Of a stretch of 64,000 nucleotides of DNA, positions 34,907-60,226 are shown in pieces (positions within the stretch are counted from its first letter, which is position 1; each line of letters opens with the position of its first letter). The DNA lies in contig NZ_CP034550.1 in NCBI RefSeq assembly GCF_009498035.1, positions 1,364,001-1,428,000 of the forward strand, written 5' to 3'. Source of the DNA: Saccharothrix syringae (lineage in GTDB: Bacteria; Actinomycetota; Actinomycetes; Mycobacteriales; Pseudonocardiaceae). The position numbers and the translations under genes are program-made. The notes under the pieces were generated by a model, which was not told the DNA's origin, did no database searches, and saw only the letters and a list, made by a program, of their open reading frames with translations.

Positions 34907-37900
34907 GTGGCGGCGAGGGGCGAGGCGCAGGCGGACGTCGAGGTGAGCACGCTGGTCGTGCCCGCCTGGCGGCTGCGTTGGCGGGCACCGGAGCTGGCGC
35001 TGGTGCTGGGCGAGCGCGCGGTCGCGCTCGCCTCCGCCCGCCGTGACGAGGTCGACCGGTTGCGCGCGGAGGCCCTGGTGGTCTTCGCGAGCAACCGCAT
35101 GGGGCGGGGCGTCCGGACCGCGGACCGGGCGCTCGACGCGCTCAAGGCGGCCGAGGCCGAGGGCGAGCGGGAGACCGCCTGGCGCCTCCGCGTCGAACTG
35201 GCCGACAGCGCCAGGTCGGTGGGTGCGCCGCTGACGGGCTTCGCGGCCGTCCGCCCGGTCCTGGAGGCGGACGACGTGCCGCCGGGCCTGCGCGCCTCGG
35301 CCCTCGTGCAGGCCAGCGAGTGCCTGGTCTCGGTGGGCCGGGGCACGGCCCTCACCCGGGCCCTGGACGAGGCCGACCACCTCTACCAGGCCGACCCGCT
35401 GCTCGACCACGACATCACGATCCTGCACCGCGGCCTGCTCCGGGCCGCGGTCGCGGGCCAGCACCGCCGCTGGGGCGACCTCGCCGCGGCGATCACCGCC
35501 TGCCGCGAGGGCCTGGCCCTGCTCGACGATCTGGAGGACGCCGAGTCGGACAACGGCCAGGTCCGCGGCCGGCTCACCGTGGAGCTGGTCTGCGCCCTGC
35601 TGGACTCCAACAAGGAGGGCGAGGCGTCGCAGGCGGGCACCCCCCTCCTGGAACGCCCGGTCCGCGCACCCGCCGCGGCCACCACCGGGTGGCTGCGCCT
35701 GGCCCTCGCCACCAGGGTCCACCTGCCCGCGGGTCGCGTCGACCAGGCCCGCGACCTGCTGCGCGACGCGGCGGACAACGCCGAGCGCCACCAGCTCGAC
35801 ACCCTCCAGACCGAGAGCCTGCTGGCGCTGGCCCACGTCCACGAGGTGTCCGGCGACCTCACCGAGGCCCTGCTGAACCTGCGCACCGCGCACGCGGCCG
35901 AGCGCAGGCGCGCCAGGGCCGTCTACGCGGTGCGCGCCAGGCTCGCCGCCGAGTTCTCCGGCGTCCACCGCCAGCCCGCCGGCAGCCTGCACGACCAACT
36001 GGCCGCCCTGCTCAGCGCGGGTGACCCGACCTTCCCGCCCGCCGCCGACCCCGGCCTGGCACCCGACGTCAAGCAGCAGCTGCGCCAGTGGCGACCGGTG
36101 CAGGTCCACCGCAACGAGGGCCTGCGCGTCAAGCGCTCCCGCCGCGCGGCCGAGGACATGACGGTCGAGGGCATCTCGGCGGCCAGGGCCCACGCCGCCG
36201 ACCGCTGGCGGTTGGTGCACCCCTTCGGTGAGCAGGGAGGACAGGGCGGCCACGACGAACAGCGCAGCCTGGGCGAGCGGCCCGCCCCGACCGAGCAGCC
36301 GAGCCAGGGTGGGCAGCCGAGCCAGGGTGGGCAGCCGAGCCAGGGTGGGCAGCCGAGCCAGGGTGGGCAGCCCGCCCTGACCGAGCAGCCCGCCCTGACC
36401 GAGCAGCGTGGTCTGACCGAGCAGCGTGGCTTGACCGAACAGCGCGACCAGGGCGGGCAGCACAACCAAGGTGGGCAGCCCGGCAAGGATGGGCAGTCCA
36501 ACCCGGGGGAGCAGGCCAGCCCGGGTGAGCAGGCAGCGGACACCCCGAAGCCCACCGGTCGCCGTCGAGCCCCGGAGCCGGACTCGTTGTCGCTGCCTCT
36601 GTCACGGCCCCTGCCGCAGCCCCTGTCCCAACCCCTGTCTCAGCCCTTGCCGCAGCCGTGGTTGGCGGCTCAGCCGCGTCCGGAGGTGTCGGAGCCGCCG
36701 CCGGTCGCCCAGGGACGCCCGGAACACGCCAGAACCAGCGAAGCGAAACCAACCGCCCTCTCCCGTCCCCCCACCCCTCCAGGCGGCTTGGACCTCCACT
36801 CCGGTACCGCCCCCACCCCCTCGCTCGGCGTCGTCCCCACCGGCCCCGTTCCCTCCCCGGCCCCGGCGACCACGCCGCCCCCCGCGCAGGCCCCCGCACA
36901 CACCGCTGCGCCGCCTTCTGCGCCACCTGCCGTCACGCCACCTGCCGCGCCGCCGGGCTTCGCGTCGCCCCCTGTGGCGCCCCCGAGCCCAGTGCGAGGG
37001 CCTGCGCAGGGACCGACTCCGGACAACCCGATCTCGGGGAACCCGTCGGCACCTCCCGCGCCGACCAGCGGGCCCACCGACTTCGACCTGCCGCCGGCCC
37101 TGGGAGGTGCGGCCCCGACCGCCTTCGGGACCCCGACTACCCCGGCCGTGCCGGGGAGAGCCGGTGCCCACGACAGCCCTGCCGGCGCAGACCCGGCCGA
37201 AACCGCGATCACCGGGGCCGCGATCACCGAGGCCGCAACTGCCGAGACCGCGACCGCCGAAACCGCCTCCGGTTCAACCGCCAAGGCGAGCGGGGAGCGC
37301 ACCGTCCCCGCCGCTGGGTTGATCGCGGCTGCCGGAGCGGTGCGCAGCGGGCGGCGACGGGCGGCCAGGGAGGCGGCTGAGGAGGAAGCCGAGAGGTCAC
37401 CCGGTGAGCCGGCGGGCGAGTCCAGCGTGCTGGACAGCCTGAAGGCCGCCGGGTTGCTCCACTCCCCGCGAGCCGGAGGACGGCGGCGGGCTCCGGAGGC
37501 TGAGGAGCCCGTCCCGGACGCGCCGGTCGTTCCGGTGCCGGAAGCCCCTGGCGGGTCGACTGACGAGCCGGTGATCACTGTCGAGCCGAAGGCCGTCGAG
37601 CCGAAGGCCGTCGAGCCGGAAGCCGTCCAGGCGGAAGTCGTCGAAACGGAAGTCGCCGTTGATCAGGTGCAGTGGCGCGTTGAAGCACCTGCGCGGTTCC
37701 GAACCGACGAACCGGTTGACACGGCGGTTGACATGCCGGTTGACATGCCGGTTGACATGTTCGACTCGCCCACCATGGTTCAACCCGTCGTTCGGGATGA
37801 TGTCCCGCCTGTTGGGCTCGGCGCGGCATTTGTGAAGGGGCCCCTGATCCCCACCGCGCGGACGCCCGAACCACCCGATTTCACCTCGGTCGCGCCTCTG

Positions 37901-38989
37901 TTCCCGATCGAGGACGTGGACGGCGGGACGCGGCCCGCCGAGGTCGAGTCCGACAACCCCGACAACGAGCCCGCCACCGAGACCAGTACCGAGATCGGCG
38001 CCCGGACCGAGATCATGCCGTTGATCAAGGTGGAGCCGGAGGACGTGCCCCGGCGCCCCGTGTTCGACGAGCCGAGGCCCGCGCCCGAACCCGCGCCCGA
38101 ACCTCCGCCCGCGTACGAACCCGCTTCCGCGTACGAACCCGCTTCCGCGTACGAACCCGCTTCCGCGTACGAGCCTGCCTCGGGGTACGAATCTGCCTCC
38201 GGGTACGAGCCCGCGCCGGAACCCGCGCCGGTTCTCGAACCCGAACCTCGCCCCGAAGCTGTTTCGGAGCCCATCGCAGAGCCCATCGCGGAGCCCGCTC
38301 CGGAGCCCACCCCTGCGCCCCCGGCGTCCTCGACCCCGGTGCCCACCACCCCGGAACCCGACCCGGCTCCGCCGACGCCGAGCAACCCGGTCCCTTCCAG
38401 CGGCCTCACCGGCCCGTCCGGCCTCACCGGCTCCACGAGCTTCCTCGGCGCCGCCGACGTCGAGGACGACGCCCCTGAGCAGCCGTTCGTCCGGGCCGTC
38501 GTGGTCGGGGGCAGGACCATCGACCTCCCGGCGGTCGTCGAACCCGCCTCGCCCACCGAGCCGCCGAGCACCACCCGCGCCTCGCGTCGCCCGAAGAGCG
38601 ACCTCAGCCTCGCCGAACTGCTCGCCGAAGCCCTGGTCGCCTACGAGGACGCCCGCCGGCAGGACGAGGCGTCCTACCGGTCGGACCACGACGCCCCGGC
38701 CGACCACCTCGACCAGGCCGCCTACGCCGACCGGCCCGCCCGCACGGACCAGGCCGCCCACACCGACCAAGCCGCCCACACCGACCAGGCCGCCCACACC
38801 GACCGGCCCGCCCCGCCCCAGGACGACCAGCCGACCCGAACCCCACAGGTCGCGCAGGTCGCCCCGGGCGACGACGACACCGTGCCGATCACCCCCGTGG
38901 CACCGACCGCCCCGGACAACGAGACCACCGCGCCCATCCGGCGCGTGGACCCGCCCCGCTTCGACACCTGGACGCTTCCCGAATCTTGA
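34907..38989 (+). CDS. Giant TPR-like protein with long repetitive disordered region
   Basis: 1360 residues from GTG at 34907. Residues 1-about 385 are helical repeats of TPR/SNAP character (PELALVLGERAVALASARRDEVDRLRAEALV, RGVRTADRALDALKAAEAEGE, ALTRALDEADHLYQADPLL, ARDLLRDAADNAERHQL). The rest is low complexity with in-frame tandem repeats: PSQGGQ x4 (465-488), LTEQ units, PLPQPLSQ units, AVEPK/AVEPE, VDMP x3-4 (37715-37762), AYEPAS x4-6 (38111-38218) and AHTDQA x3 (38756-38809). Short ordered islands (SVLDSLKAAGLLHSPRAGGRRRAPE, SDLSLAELLAEALVAYED) may be binding motifs. No signal peptide or TM. Function unknown; the TPR part suggests a protein-interaction scaffold. It is inserted between ettA and gdh. 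Confidence 0.8.
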   Translation: MAARGEAQADVEVSTLVVPAWRLRWRAPELALVLGERAVALASARRDEVDRLRAEALVVFASNRMGRGVRTADRALDALKAAEAEGERETAWRLRVELADSARSVGAPLTGFAAVRPVLEADDVPPGLRASALVQASECLVSVGRGTALTRALDEADHLYQADPLLDHDITILHRGLLRAAVAGQHRRWGDLAAAITACREGLALLDDLEDAESDNGQVRGRLTVELVCALLDSNKEGEASQAGTPLLERPVRAPAAATTGWLRLALATRVHLPAGRVDQARDLLRDAADNAERHQLDTLQTESLLALAHVHEVSGDLTEALLNLRTAHAAERRRARAVYAVRARLAAEFSGVHRQPAGSLHDQLAALLSAGDPTFPPAADPGLAPDVKQQLRQWRPVQVHRNEGLRVKRSRRAAEDMTVEGISAARAHAADRWRLVHPFGEQGGQGGHDEQRSLGERPAPTEQPSQGGQPSQGGQPSQGGQPSQGGQPALTEQPALTEQRGLTEQRGLTEQRDQGGQHNQGGQPGKDGQSNPGEQASPGEQAADTPKPTGRRRAPEPDSLSLPLSRPLPQPLSQPLSQPLPQPWLAAQPRPEVSEPPPVAQGRPEHARTSEAKPTALSRPPTPPGGLDLHSGTAPTPSLGVVPTGPVPSPAPATTPPPAQAPAHTAAPPSAPPAVTPPAAPPGFASPPVAPPSPVRGPAQGPTPDNPISGNPSAPPAPTSGPTDFDLPPALGGAAPTAFGTPTTPAVPGRAGAHDSPAGADPAETAITGAAITEAATAETATAETASGSTAKASGERTVPAAGLIAAAGAVRSGRRRAAREAAEEEAERSPGEPAGESSVLDSLKAAGLLHSPRAGGRRRAPEAEEPVPDAPVVPVPEAPGGSTDEPVITVEPKAVEPKAVEPEAVQAEVVETEVAVDQVQWRVEAPARFRTDEPVDTAVDMPVDMPVDMFDSPTMVQPVVRDDVPPVGLGAAFVKGPLIPTARTPEPPDFTSVAPLFPIEDVDGGTRPAEVESDNPDNEPATETSTEIGARTEIMPLIKVEPEDVPRRPVFDEPRPAPEPAPEPPPAYEPASAYEPASAYEPASAYEPASGYESASGYEPAPEPAPVLEPEPRPEAVSEPIAEPIAEPAPEPTPAPPASSTPVPTTPEPDPAPPTPSNPVPSSGLTGPSGLTGSTSFLGAADVEDDAPEQPFVRAVVVGGRTIDLPAVVEPASPTEPPSTTRASRRPKSDLSLAELLAEALVAYEDARRQDEASYRSDHDAPADHLDQAAYADRPARTDQAAHTDQAAHTDQAAHTDRPAPPQDDQPTRTPQVAQVAPGDDDTVPITPVAPTAPDNETTAPIRRVDPPRFDTWTLPES

Positions 38990-54646: not shown

Positions 54647-54800
54647 CGGGTCGCGCAGCCCGGGTCGCGCAGCTCGGGTCGCGCAGCTCGGGTCGCGCAG
54701 CTCGGGTCGCGCAGCTCGGGTCGCGCAGCTCGGGTCGCGCAGCTCGGGTCGCGCAGCTCGGGTCGCGCAGCTCGGGTCCCGCAGCTCGGGTCCCGCAGCC
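54647..54800 (+). repeat. 14-bp minisatellite, 11 tandem copies
   Basis: Eleven head-to-tail copies of CGGGTCGCGCAGCT with no spacer. Copies 1 and 11 end in C, and copies 10-11 have CCC for CGC at the centre. As 14 is not a multiple of 3, the array is unlikely to be coding. Each pair of units can form a GCGC-stemmed hairpin. Confidence 0.95.
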
Positions 54801-54874
54801 GGGGCATCAAGCCGCGGTCACGGGGCCGAGACCACGGAGCCAAGACCACGGGGCCGAGGTCACCCCCGCCGGCG

Positions 54875-55779: not shown

Positions 55780-57871
55780 CTACAACTCGAGGCCCGTCGC
55801 CCAGGCCAGGAAGGTCAACTGGTCCACGGCCAGCCCGACGGACCGGCTGACCGACCGCCCCGCGTGCCCCACCTCGGTCTCCCGGCGGATGAGCACCGGG
55901 TGCTTGGTCGGATCGCTCGCCGACGCGTGCTGCAGCGCCGCGCACATCTTCCGGGCGTGGTTGGGGTCCACGCGGCTGTCCGACTCGAAGACCGTGAACA
56001 GCACCGAAGGGTACTCAACCCCCGGCCGCACCCGGTGGTACGGGGAGTAGGACAGCAGCCACCCCAGCTCCTCCGGCACGGCCGCCGACCCGTACTCCTC
56101 CGCCCACAACCGCCCGAGCAGGAAGTTCTCGTACCGCACCATGTCCAGCAGTGGCGCCGAGCACACCACCGCCGCGTACAGCTCGGGCCGCTGCGTCAGC
56201 GCCGCCCCGACCAGCAGGCCGCCGTTCGAGCCGCCCATGACCGACAGCTGCTCCGGTGTCGTCCACCCGTCCGAGACCAGCCGCTCCGCCGCCGCGTGGA
56301 AGTCGTCGAACACGTTCTGCTTCCGCGACCGCATCCCGGCCTTGTGCCATTCCTCTCCCTCCTCGTCGCCGCCGCGCAGCGACGCGTGCGCCCACACCCC
56401 GCCCGCCTCGACCCACGCCAGCGTCGTGGCGCTGTACCCCGGCCCGCGCCCGACGGCGAACCCGCCGTACCCCGTCAGCAGCGCCGGCCTGGGCAGGTCC
56501 GGGTCCCGCGTCCCGGACACCACGAACATTCGCACGACCGTCCCGTCCGCCGACGGGTACGAGACCTGCTGTGTGGACAACTCCGGGATCGTCACCCGTC
56601 CGGGGGCCGGGGTCTCCAGCGAGACGACGCCCCCGGACAGCGAGAACCGGTACACCGACAGGGGCGTGACGAAGTCGGACCAGCCGAACCACAGCACGTC
56701 GCGGTCCGCAAGGGTCCGCTCGTCGACTGTGGACAACCCGTGCACCGACCCCGTCCCGGGGAGCGCGATCTCCCGCAGCCACGTGCCGTCCGCGGCGTGC
56801 AGGTGCAGCTCCGAGACCGCGTGCCGGGTCCGCAGCACCACCAGCGACCCGTCCAGCGGCACGACCGCGTCCAGCACCGAGTCCGGTTCCTCGGCCACCA
56901 GCTCGGTCCACGCGGTCGGCTCCGCCGGGTCGGCCACGCACAGCCGGAACCGCGGCGCGCCCAGGCTGGTCAGCAGGTACAGCCGCCCGTCGGCGCCCAC
57001 CCCACGCCGAGCACTGCGCCCCGTCGTCGGCCGAGAGCACCGGCCGCAGCTCCCCGGAACCGCGCAGGTCGGCGATCCACACCGAGTCCCGCCGCACGGT
57101 CCCCGGCGCGCCGACCACGACCAGCCACCGGCCGTCCTCGGACACCGTCAGCCCGTAGTAGTAGGTGTGGTCGAGCCCGTCGCCGTGCACGTTCACGTCC
57201 GAGGCGGTCGGCGCGCCCACCCGGTGCCGCCACACCCGCCGGTGGAACTGCCGCTCGTCCTCGGGCACCAGGTCGGGGTCGAGCCGCCGCACGTAGAAGA
57301 ACTCCTCGCCGCCGGGCAGCCACCCCACCGGCGAGTACCGGCAGCGGTCGACGGGGCCGTCGAGCAGCTCGCCGGTGTCCACGTCGACCACGTGCAGCAG
57401 GGAGTGCTCGTCGCCGCCCACCGATACCTGGTACGCCAGCCGCGTGCCCTCCAGCGACGGCGACCAGCGGTCCAGCGTGGTCCGCCCCGACGGGTCGAGC
57501 GCCGACACGTCGAGCAGCACCCGCTCCACGCCGTCGACCCGCACGTAGAGCACGGGGTGGTCCTGGTCGGGGTCGCGGCGCGTGTAGAACACCCGGCCGG
57601 CCCGCCGCACCGGCACGCCGACGGACCCGGTGCGCATCAGCTCGGCGAGCCGCGCGCCCAGCCGCTCGCGGCCCGGCATCGCGTCCAGCCACGACCGGGT
57701 GAGGTCGTCCTGGGCGGTCGACCACGCGTCGGTGCGCGGGTCGGCCGGGTCCTCCAACCAGCGGTAGGGATCGGCCACGGCGTGCCCGTGCAGGTCCTCG
57801 ACGAGGTCGAGCCGTTCGGCGGTCGGGTAGGTGGTCGTCGCAGGCAGCGCTGCGCGGGGAGGCTCGGTCAC
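55780..57871 (-). pseudogene. Prolyl oligopeptidase (S9A) interrupted by a frameshift
   Basis: A full-length S9A enzyme (about 697 codons) is encoded in two frames. Start GTG at 57871 (TACGCT 7 nt upstream). The N-terminal frame reads TTTYPTAERLDLVEDLHGHAVADPYRWLEDP and the beta-propeller as far as DDGAQCSAW; the C-terminal frame continues VGADGRLYLLTSL. The switch lies at a run of four G on the coding strand (57000-57003); removing one G restores the frame. The triad is intact: GGSNGG (Ser), DSRVDPNHARK (Asp) and EVGHAGR (His). It could be a sequencing error, a true mutation or phase variation. Two DnaA boxes lie inside. Confidence 0.85.
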
Positions 57872-58023
57872 CCCGCCGAGCGTACCGACAGATTTGAAAA
57901 CGATCGTCGATAGGGGTGGGTTCACCGAAGTTTTGGCCACGGCTCCGTGACACGTCACATATCACAGGTGATTTTTCACCGTGATCTGTGGTCTCCTAGG
58001 TCTGAACCGGTGGAGGTGGTCGC

Positions 58024-58683
58024 GTGCCAGACCGACAACCCACCCCGATCGGCGCCCTGGCGAACGCCGGGATCGCGTCGTCGGCCCCGTACGGCCCGAA
58101 GCAGCCCGGCGTGCACGCCGTGGCGGTGGGCGGGGAGGGAGCCGGTCCGGCCCCCCTGGTGCTGCCCTGGGGGAGGCGCAAGGTCCTCCTCCTCAACGCC
58201 ACCTTCGAGCCCCTGACCGCGCTGCCGCTGCGGCGCGCCGTGGTGCTCGTGGTGTGCGGGAAGGCGGAGGTGGTGCACGGCGACCCGGCGGGCGCCGTCG
58301 TCCACTCCTCGACGGCCCAGGTGGTGGTGCCGTCGGTGATCAGGCTGGCGAACTACGTGCGGGTGCCCTACCGCGGCCGGGTCCCGCTGACCCGCGCCGG
58401 GCTGATGCACCGCGACCGGTACCGCTGCGCGTACTGCGGCGGGCGCGCCGAGACCATCGACCACGTGGTGCCGCGCAGCAGGGGCGGCGCCCACTCGTGG
58501 ACCAACTGCGTGGCCTGCTGCGCCCGGTGCAACCACCGCAAGGCCGACAAGCTCCTGTCGGAGCTGGGCTGGCGGCTGCGGGTGGTGCCCGCCGCGCCCC
58601 GCGGGCCGCACTGGCGGCTGCTGGCCGGCGTCACCGAGGCCGACCCGCTGTGGCTGCCCTACCTGGGCGAGCCCGCGGCCTGA
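58024..58683 (+). CDS. HNH endonuclease family protein (Rv2469c-like)
   Basis: 219 residues from GTG at 58024, GGAGG 8 nt upstream. After an N-terminal extension, VLLLNATFEPLTALPLRRAVVLVVCGKAEVV is the conserved start of an actinobacterial HNH family. The nuclease core is RYRCAYCGGRAETIDHVVPRSRGGAHSWTNCVACCARCNHRKADK, with CxxC/CxxC zinc pairs and the DH...N...H catalytic pattern. Widely conserved, cytosolic, likely in DNA repair or processing; exact role unknown. GGTGATTTTTCACC (57967-57980) upstream is a palindromic hairpin or operator. Confidence 0.9.
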   Translation: MPDRQPTPIGALANAGIASSAPYGPKQPGVHAVAVGGEGAGPAPLVLPWGRRKVLLLNATFEPLTALPLRRAVVLVVCGKAEVVHGDPAGAVVHSSTAQVVVPSVIRLANYVRVPYRGRVPLTRAGLMHRDRYRCAYCGGRAETIDHVVPRSRGGAHSWTNCVACCARCNHRKADKLLSELGWRLRVVPAAPRGPHWRLLAGVTEADPLWLPYLGEPAA

Positions 58684-58692
58684 CGCGCCCCT

Positions 58693-59037
58693 TCACGCCG
58701 CGAGGGCGAGGTCTTCGCGGCGCACCGTGATGCGCACGGAGTCCGATGCCGTGATCCGGACCGAGTCCGACGCGGTGATCCGGACCGAGTCCGACGCGGT
58801 GATGCGGACCGAGTCGTCGGCCGTGATCCGGACCGAGTCGGACGCCGTGATGCGCACCGAGTCCGAGGCCGTGATGCGGACGGAGTCGTCCGCGGTGATC
58901 CGAACGGAGTCCCGCGCGGTGATGCGAACCGAGTCCGGGGACGACGCCTGAGCCTGAACAGTGGTAACGCTCTGCTCCGATCGGGTGTACGGCGAAAGGG
59001 TGAGGGTAGCAACGTGAAAGCGCTTCACGGTGTACAT
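58693..59037 (-). CDS. Octapeptide-repeat protein of unknown function
   Basis: 114 residues from ATG at 59037, with GGAGGA 6 nt upstream, which decides the start and strand. Residues 1-34 (MYTVKRFHVATLTLSPYTRS to ASSP) are non-repetitive with Thr/Ser/Gln and no signal peptide. Residues 35-106 are nine exact 8-residue units, DSVRITA followed by S, D or R; only the last has V for A. The end is REDLALAA. Alternating V/I/A facing one side and S/R/T the other predicts beta-strands with Asp at turns, as in a beta-solenoid or amyloid-like fold. The leader-plus-repeats layout also resembles multi-core RiPP precursors, but no modifying enzyme is adjacent. It interrupts the HNH-ctaJ backbone. No known family recognised. 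Confidence 0.75.
   Translation of the reverse strand: MYTVKRFHVATLTLSPYTRSEQSVTTVQAQASSPDSVRITARDSVRITADDSVRITASDSVRITASDSVRITADDSVRITASDSVRITASDSVRITASDSVRITVRREDLALAA
58720..58935 (-). repeat. 24-bp tandem repeat, nine copies, in the octapeptide gene
   Basis: Nine units of 24 bp encode residues 35-106. Unit sequences vary mainly at third codon positions while the peptide is kept, so the repeats are older than a recent slippage event and appear to be under selection on the minus-strand reading. Confidence 0.9.
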
Positions 59038-59511
59038 GTCGTGTCCTCCGGGCCTCGTGAGGCGGGACTTTTGATCCCTCAAGGGATGCGCAAGAGCCGT
59101 ACAGGTGAAAAGTTAGAAGCCGAGTGGGCCCGGGACAAGACGCCAAACCGGCCGCCATTCACCTCCTTCCGGGGGAAGCCCGTCCGGGTGCACGCGCTGC
59201 GACGAACGACCCGCCGGCCTGCTGCATCCGGAGCCGATCACCGCGGGCGGTGGCATCGCCCCAGGTAGGGGGTCGGCCGCGACGGGCCTCCCCAAGCCTC
59301 GCCGGGTGCCCTGCTTTCGTGAGGGGAGTGGTCCGCCGGTTACCTACCGGGCGGTCGCGAGCGGAACGTGATCGGGGCCCGCGGCGGCGGGGCGGCGTTC
59401 ACAGACGGCGCGGCCGCCGGCGGGTGGTGCGCGCGGCCCCCAACCCCCACCAGTGCGGAAAGGGGTGACCTCGACCTGAGGCGGGCAGCGGGATCGGTTA
59501 CCGTAACCGCC
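59038..59511. promoter_or_regulatory. Divergent upstream region of the octapeptide gene and ctaJ
   Basis: 474 bp without a convincing gene. Near the octapeptide gene are GCCTCGTGAGGC (59053-59064) and a perfect palindrome ATCCCTCAAGGGAT (59074-59087). Next to ctaJ, GGTTACCGTAACC (59496-59508) is a palindrome that contains the -10 box TACCGT (59499-59504), 7 nt before the ctaJ GTG. Confidence 0.5.
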
Positions 59512-59757
59512 GTGACCATCGTGGAGACCGTGCTCGTCTTCGCGCTGATCCCGCTGGCCATCTACGGCGTGATCGCGCTACTGACGCTGAGGCCGAAGGC
59601 CACCCGCATCCAGCGGTACCGGCCCGGTCAGGAATGGGATTACGCGCCCGTCTGGTGGACCGCCAACCCCGCCGGCCTGCCCGGTGGCGCGCACCAGGTC
59701 GCCGCCGCGCCGGTCGAGGGCCGCACCGCCGTGGGAGGCGCTCGTGGCAACTGGTGA
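59512..59757 (+). CDS. ctaJ: aa3-type cytochrome oxidase subunit CtaJ
   Basis: 81 residues from GTG at 59512, likely leaderless. One TM at the N-terminus (VETVLVFALIPLAIYGVIALLTL), then RYRPGQEWDYAPVWWTAN and the C-terminal tail ending VGGARGNW. This single-TM form with a W-rich segment and GGAxGxW end matches CtaJ, a small subunit found in the mycobacterial III2-IV2 supercomplex. Its neighbour is a DUF5130 gene, as in mycobacteria. The stop overlaps the next gene by 14 bp. Assignment is from memory of the family. Confidence 0.75.
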   Translation: MTIVETVLVFALIPLAIYGVIALLTLRPKATRIQRYRPGQEWDYAPVWWTANPAGLPGGAHQVAAAPVEGRTAVGGARGNW

Positions 59758-60226
59758 GCTGACCCGAACCGAGGTGGACCCGTCGACCCTGCCGGTCGGC
59801 GCCGCCGTGACCAACAGCGGCCGCGTGTCCGCCGCGAAGATGTACGAGCCGCACGCGCCGAGCCTGCCGTTCACGCCCGTGCAGCTGTCCACGCTGGACG
59901 AGGTGCTGACCGTGGCCGGCCGCACCACCGGCCTGGACTTCAGCGTCTACCTGGGCGGGCTGGGGCCGGACTCGCGGGCGCGGGCCGAGGAGCTGCACGC
60001 CTCCACGCCGAACCCGGCCAACGCCGTGCTGGTCGCGGTGTCGCCCGGTGAGCGCGTGGTCGAGGTGGTGACCGGCGAGGAGTCCCACCGGCGCCTCGAC
60101 GACCGCGGCTGCAAGCTCGCGGTGATGAGCATGATCGCCTCCTTCAAGGAGGGCGACCTGGCGGGCGGCCTGATCAGCGGCCTGCGCATGCTGACCGACC
60201 AGGCCGGGTACGCGCCCCGCCGCTGA
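59744..60226 (+). CDS. DUF5130 (TPM-like) family protein
   Basis: 160 residues from GTG at 59744. It begins with a short polar N-terminus, then LPFTPVQLSTLDEVLTVAGRTTGLDFSVYLGGLGPDSRARAEELHAS and NAVLVAVSPGERVVEVVTGEESHRRLDDRGCKLAVMSMIASFKEGDLAGGL, a TPM-like alpha/beta domain (phosphatase/assembly-factor-like). No signal peptide. It corresponds to Rv2468c. Translational coupling with ctaJ suggests a role in respiratory-complex assembly, but that is inference. Confidence 0.85.
   Translation: MATGELTRTEVDPSTLPVGAAVTNSGRVSAAKMYEPHAPSLPFTPVQLSTLDEVLTVAGRTTGLDFSVYLGGLGPDSRARAEELHASTPNPANAVLVAVSPGERVVEVVTGEESHRRLDDRGCKLAVMSMIASFKEGDLAGGLISGLRMLTDQAGYAPRR

Follow-up and report, generated by a model that had tools for sequence, protein, structure and literature searches.

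We have analyzed a 64,000-nucleotide stretch of Saccharothrix syringae DNA (contig NZ_CP034550.1 of assembly GCF_009498035.1, positions 1,364,001 to 1,428,000; hereafter the window), in which a small minus-strand gene encodes nine tandem copies of an eight-residue unit. Judged from sequence, this array gene is conserved through most sampled genera of the Pseudonocardiaceae, the pentapeptide that it repeats is under selection and exists in lineage-specific versions, a nearly invariant 21-nt element precedes the gene, and in part of the family the protein ends in LAA. The array protein is so far undescribed; among the open-access PMC papers listed there is no description of it, subscription journals lying outside the scope of that search.

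An array of peptide units under selection

The gene and its parts are arranged as follows.
58693..59037, minus strand: array gene, 114 codons and stop
58936..59037, minus strand: leader of 34 residues (MYT...), conserved among Saccharothrix genomes, with a predicted local distance difference test (pLDDT) score <50 in the structural model
58720..58935, minus strand: nine 24-nt units, each DSVRIT plus two residues, from Tandem Repeats Finder and the translation
58693..58719, minus strand: tail REDLALAA and stop, resembling the transfer-messenger RNA (tmRNA) tag of the same genome, AESNDQRAFALAA
59044..59049, minus strand: Shine-Dalgarno-like GGAGGA, with similar sequences at the same place in relatives

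The initial annotation had described a leader of 34 residues, nine exact octapeptides and a short tail. The minus-strand gene, the leader, the nine units and the tail (eight residues) all stand, but the ninth unit reads DSVRITVR, so that the exact repeat is DSVRIT nine times over, with A as the next residue in eight of the units. The strand had been assigned from the GGAGGA lying 6 nt before the ATG at 59037, and this is borne out. Tandem Repeats Finder scores the array at 242 with a period of 24 and at 293 with a period of 72.

Across the nine units the DSVRIT core has a proportion of nonsynonymous differences (pN) of 0.000 and of synonymous differences (pS) of 0.442, and for the whole eight-residue unit pN/pS is 0.21, which is not near 1. 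Reading eight of the units in each of the six frames yields a pN/pS of 0.17 for the coding frame and of 0.32–2.83 for the other five. Because the silent sites vary while DSVRIT is fixed, and because pN/pS is lowest in the coding frame, selection in the array acts on the peptide, in agreement with the earlier claim that the units differ mainly at silent sites. A function of the array as DNA or RNA (iteron-like repeats or a sponge RNA), or its origin as a neutral minisatellite, would fit copy numbers that run from 2 to 51 across the family and a non-coding 21-nt element more uniform than the protein. We regard it as highly improbable: third codon positions are free where replacement sites are fixed, which contradicts a role at the level of the nucleic acid, there is no Rfam match, and the 5' region has no consensus fold.

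There is no second DSVRIT protein in the S. syringae genome, where a degenerate pattern gave one place, DTVRIT, beyond the nine array copies. A GTRVT-like match at 2419246 is an other-frame or low-complexity repeat.

Distribution of the array gene

The initial annotation had proposed a search for homologues. These are found in relatives, and the leader is conserved within the genus Saccharothrix. A protein search of 60 genomes, including that of S. syringae, gave matches in 30. These include each of the 24 further Saccharothrix genomes, and also one false match (G050), which is no member. A profile search of the family matched 104 of 297 genomes, but this is an undercount, as the profile mainly sees SVRIT. 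We therefore surveyed one genome from each of 46 Pseudonocardiaceae genera, reading the sequence after the convergent HNH gene, an anchor chosen so as to see beyond the SVRIT word. In the window the flanking genes are these.
58024..58683, plus strand: HNH endonuclease gene (Pfam), convergent, the anchor of the locus
59500..59757, plus strand: small divergent gene resembling ctaJ, with a tentative start; the open reading frame (ORF) that contains it has no Pfam match
59684..60226, plus strand: DUF5130 gene (Pfam)
The divergent gene is presumably ctaJ, a name taken from the initial annotation.

An array lies next to the HNH gene in 39 of the 46 genera, and no array follows it in the other seven (g3, g4, g5, g50, g58, g59 and g64). 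Measured between tblastn matches rather than annotated genes, the HNH–ctaJ distance is 45–130 nt in five array-less genera and 455–1290 nt in 32 array genera, these being the loci, out of 39, in which ctaJ could be placed. Absence is less sure for g5, with an HNH protein only about half identical, and for both g5 and g64, which have no ctaJ match at the locus. The lowest copy numbers are two (g57) and three (g42). Four loci from another family of the order (f8, which we take to be the Mycobacteriaceae) have no array. The gene had been thought accessory, interrupting an otherwise conserved HNH–ctaJ order; to judge by the survey it is instead a single-copy resident of most sampled genera.

Several candidate matches were discarded on reading. 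At the level of the class the GTRVT pattern matched 48 of 394 genomes, and the loci read there (L262, L264–L267, L270 and L271) hold other-frame or low-complexity repeats rather than arrays, as do L176 (genome G767), L048, L049 and L050. One record from outside the family is of another kind. In Kribbella sp. ALI-6-A, assigned to the order Propionibacteriales, a signal-peptide-like start is followed by five DSVRIT copies (L108:3950-4183); it adjoins an ABC-transporter region and a topoisomerase-type gene (both named by eye), unrelated to the locus of the family.

Lineage-specific words

Each array has one dominant pentapeptide, and ten such words occur over the 39 array genera: GTRVT in 15, GVRIS in nine, SVRIT in five, GVRIH, GTRIT and GVRVT in two each, and GVRIE, GIRVT, GVRIN and GVRVN in one each. 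All share the pattern [GS]-[VTI]-R-[VI]-[TSHEN]. Among named records SVRIT is the word of Saccharothrix, Lentzea and Umezawaea. The linkers between copies vary in sequence, charge and length; two linker values, 73 and 82, come from stray motif matches ahead of the array.

The 39 arrays contain 560 exact copies and 22 that are one residue off, with changes at position 1 (one), position 3 (four), position 4 (12) and position 5 (five), and none at position 2. In 48 distinct SVRIT arrays there are 775 exact copies and five one residue off. Arginine is found at position 3 in 575 of 575 pooled copies, but by construction, since the motif expression fixes it there; the four changes out of 22 are the fairer test. 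Between copies the median pS is 0.50, near saturation, and the median pN is 0.016, the latter conditioned on copies no more than one residue from the dominant motif. With silent sites so close to saturation, the identity of the copies is not due to fresh duplication. In six loci (L011, L012 and L042–L045) perfect repeats are accompanied by decayed ones such as VRPTPE and ARAAVANRG, which often fall within the array's first half.

Mapped on a tree of the HNH proteins, the ten words and the state "none" require 13 changes, where 10 is the minimum; shuffled assignments require 29.0, and none of 200 was as low. For this tree g5 was left out and two f8 loci were added as "none", and 16 of its 44 inner branches are well supported. 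The words are thus inherited, yet whole arrays have swapped their word several times.

A nearly invariant 21-nt element

Upstream of the gene we find the following.
59090..59110, minus strand: 21-nt element TTTCACCTGTACGGCTCTTGC, nearly invariant in the family
59110..59115, minus strand: putative −10 box TAACTT, by eye
59133..59138, minus strand: putative −35 box TTGTCC, by eye, separated from the −10 box by 17 nt
The putative sigma-A-like promoter runs into the element, which lies at the expected start of transcription.

Allowing up to two mismatches, 36 of the 39 array genera have the element, 32 of them without any mismatch, and none of the seven array-less genera has it, their best match showing at least four mismatches; mononucleotide-shuffled loci reach 2–4 at best. 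The consensus was drawn up after the sequences had been seen. Three array genera lack the element: g45, and also g55 and g62, both of which have a variant recognizable by eye. A degenerate pattern allowing one mismatch hits 106 of the 150 family genomes, at a single site in 105 of them and at two sites in the remaining one, and its reversed control hits nine; some of the 44 genomes that lack a site belong to array genera. All 30 of the element loci retrieved carry an array, which is accompanied by an HNH match in 29; the other locus, L237, is truncated at 2,623 bases. The exact element is present in only two of the 394 class genomes, both Pseudonocardiaceae.

Counted from the element's first base through the last base of the ATG, the distance is 73–78 nt in 33 of 34 measured cases and 56 nt in Lentzea, and the intervening sequence is not conserved. 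The 5' region has no common fold (RNAalifold −0.5 kcal/mol; single-sequence z from −2.6 to 2.6, around 0, against mononucleotide shuffles). A regulon box for the S. syringae genome was considered and rejected: a 15-nt core has one exact site and five with two mismatches, those five having 4–6 mismatches over the full 21 nt, and the reversed control has one. The natural reading is that the element may be a dedicated operator or a signal at the 5' end of the RNA.

The C-terminal tail

In 12 of the 39 array genera, including that of the window (LALAA), the protein ends in LAA (11 genera) or LAG (one), an ending found in none of 320 flanking ORFs. Other AA endings occur in seven of the 39 and in eight of the 320. 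The flanking ORFs, of at least 150 codons from stop to stop, were taken from 25 loci, of which 24 belong to the window's genus. The tails of nine genera resemble a tmRNA (ssrA) tag along a stretch of about eight residues (REDLALAA, RGDFALAA, QNDFSLAA, QSDLSLAA, RAQLALAA, RSEYALAA twice, RDELALAA and RSRYALAG), and in all 26 genomes tested the full-length tmRNA has a tag ending in LAA. Unlike the tag, the tail is encoded in the gene itself. According to one study, the ClpX- and ClpC1-ClpP1P2 proteases of Mycobacterium tuberculosis degrade substrates carrying AADSHQRDYALAA (PMC4416901). By this likeness array proteins with such tails would be degraded by the Clp machinery.

A possible fold and its alternatives

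We infer, tentatively, that the array protein may be a cytoplasmic β-solenoid that shows arginine and a polar residue to a co-evolving partner, its amount being limited by a switch of its own and, in some genera, by Clp as well. Each pentapeptide would form one strand, with the β-branched residues 2 and 4 pointing inward and Arg3 and the polar residue 5 outward, and the linkers would make the corners. A turn would comprise three six-residue units in GTRVT arrays and three units of eight or nine residues in SVRIT and GVRIS arrays. The rod would offer regular arginine and polar rows to a protein or polyanion, the copy number setting its length and valency. Between genus groups the pentapeptide is replaced in every copy at once, as a co-evolving partner would lead one to expect. 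The amount of protein would be governed by the switch at the start of transcription, and in about a third of the genera the ssrA-like C-terminus would deliver it to ClpX/ClpC1-ClpP.

In 27 GTRVT arrays the linkers repeat every third unit (lag-3, z 8.6). For the Lentzea homologue one AlphaFold2 model in five is solenoid-like, and profiles of β-helical families match, mostly below cut-off. These results lend some support to the β-strand repeats of the initial annotation; the Asp turn that it placed in each unit does not hold as a general feature, as 11 of 15 GTRVT arrays are without any Asp or Glu. The unit has six residues in most GTRVT genera and a mixture of eight and nine in Lentzea. The six-residue units and period-three linkers (18 residues) of GTRVT arrays may correspond to the coil of three hexapeptides in the left-handed β-helix of LpxA, LpxD and GlmU, and LpxD- and NeuD-type NCBIfam profiles match one GTRVT protein below cut-off. 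The array differs in having no enzyme domain and far more uniform repeats, and it fits the hexapeptide consensus only in part.

Several observations favor an alternative. The motif is almost invariant while the linkers vary in sequence, charge and length; degenerate copies are tolerated (L011 and L012); the other four Lentzea models have very low confidence, and the leader is modeled as disordered in both the window and the Lentzea proteins. All of these would suit a disordered array in which the pentapeptide is a linear motif binding by strand addition between flexible linkers, making a multivalent scaffold, a decoy or a former of condensates with the same switch and tail. This is the closest rival to the solenoid, and we think it a rather unlikely possibility; the lag-3 periodicity of GTRVT linkers and the scarcity of two-residue linkers would be unexpected of free spacers, and one model is solenoid-like.

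The Kribbella record favors an exported peptide. Together with the leader, the identical cores and the dialects it is consistent with a multi-copy precursor, related to a proposal of the initial annotation, from which proteases (Clp, peptidases) would free lineage-specific peptides of 5–9 residues as an intracellular or exported signal or as a ribosomally synthesized and post-translationally modified peptide. The Phr peptides of Bacillus are pentapeptide signals of similar make-up. Yet the leaders of the family have no signal-peptide-like N-terminus, as judged by eye without a predictor, the linkers are not conserved as cleavage sites, and Pfam finds no modifying enzyme among the nine neighboring ORFs of the window, the rest of the genome not having been searched for such enzymes. 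We consider a precursor possible, though quite improbable.

The window protein is modeled with confident repeats, yet without intrachain strands, and its model has no structural match in the PDB and only matches of E >2 in BFVD. This model, and the strict period of eight in the window, would be compatible with a homotrimeric needle. VgrG and phage gp5 needles have β-forming repeats of about eight residues with alternating aliphatic positions, three chains being wound together. The best PDB sequence match is VgrG, although not significantly (E 0.085), and DUF2345, the C-terminal β-helix of VgrG, lies above the Pfam cut-off in three of seven proteins scanned: that of the window and two SVRIT-type homologues, L107 and L101 (37, 61 and 88 bits). 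It falls below cut-off in L079 and a GVRIS protein, and is not matched at E 0.01 in GTRVT or Kribbella proteins; Gp5_trimer_C of the T4 gp5 needle matches below cut-off only. Since ChapFlgA, DUF3540 and Sarcoglycan_1, which are unrelated, also pass in L107 or L101, and other dialects have no match, the DUF2345 match looks compositional. Membership of VgrG was rejected on the same grounds, and because the protein consists of leader, array and tail with no gp27/gp5-like core domain. Phage and secretion genes are absent from the neighbors scanned with Pfam, many genera have six-residue units, and the pentapeptides are near-identical. With unit lengths mixed in Lentzea as well, we find a trimeric needle very doubtful.

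Other known systems match less. The functional amyloids FapC and CsgA have β repeats, but their Foldseek matches are not significant (E 0.38 and 0.97), the repeat of the array is different, and no secretion signal was seen. Pentapeptide-repeat proteins (MfpA/Qnr) consist of contiguous A(D/N)LXX; both systems have a conserved unit of five residues, but that of the array is [GS][VTI]R[VI]X with linkers between, and the Pfam pentapeptide-repeat family has no match in the seven proteins scanned. No NCBIfam model reaches cut-off in four proteins scanned. PADLOC, a search for anti-phage defense, returns no family for the window protein or L107, and a role as a known defense protein was rejected. The PHROG matches comprise a family of unknown function and, weakly, a head-decoration family.

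The locus and its surroundings

Nine neighboring ORFs in the window were scanned with Pfam, giving HNH, DUF5130, S9 peptidase, mechanosensitive channel, globin, HTH/DUF5753 and M1 peptidase; six of these also surround the array gene in relatives. In the window and in 28 relatives' loci the array gene is flanked on one side by the convergent HNH gene and on the other by DUF5130, and genes for globin, a mechanosensitive channel and S9 and M1 peptidases are found nearby. Among the 28, L046 is on a contig of 3.4 kb in which only part is visible, and in three (L040, L051 and L052) the array is unmatched by the window protein and was recognized on reading the sequence. Three more fetched loci (L048–L050) have none of these neighbors.

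The S9 (prolyl oligopeptidase) gene, at 55780-57958 on the minus strand, is in two overlapping frames in the window, each half matching S9 profiles. The starts of the pieces in tblastn are offset by a number that is not a multiple of three, but in relatives L021 and L022 the offset is a multiple of three; the split is either a frame break or a sequencing error. A 14-bp tandem array (54647-54803; 11.3 copies, 97% matches) lies between the globin and mechanosensitive-channel genes, and a CRP-like palindromic stretch (GTGA...TCAC, by eye) upstream of the HNH gene at 57920-57990. Several repeats at 36274-38813, with periods of 12–54 bp that are mainly multiples of three, bear no relation to the array.

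Implications

A small gene that would otherwise be filed as a hypothetical ORF is regularly present in most of the genera sampled, and its cis-element is strikingly uniform. The gene may belong to a hitherto undescribed class of intracellular recognition system in the Pseudonocardiaceae, an idea that we regard as speculative and unlikely as it stands, in which a lineage's word would be read by a co-evolving receptor. The protein would be made from its dedicated switch and continually destroyed through the ssrA-like tag, and the occupancy of the receptor, or a released peptide, would report lineage identity or the state of proteolysis. It is an evolutionary puzzle that a word kept so strictly by purifying selection should nevertheless have been exchanged in all copies at once, and the ten dialects could be swapped for one another directly in a search for the receptor. 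Should the tail be functional, the Clp machinery, a target of several actinobacterial antibiotics, would have natural substrates in these proteins.
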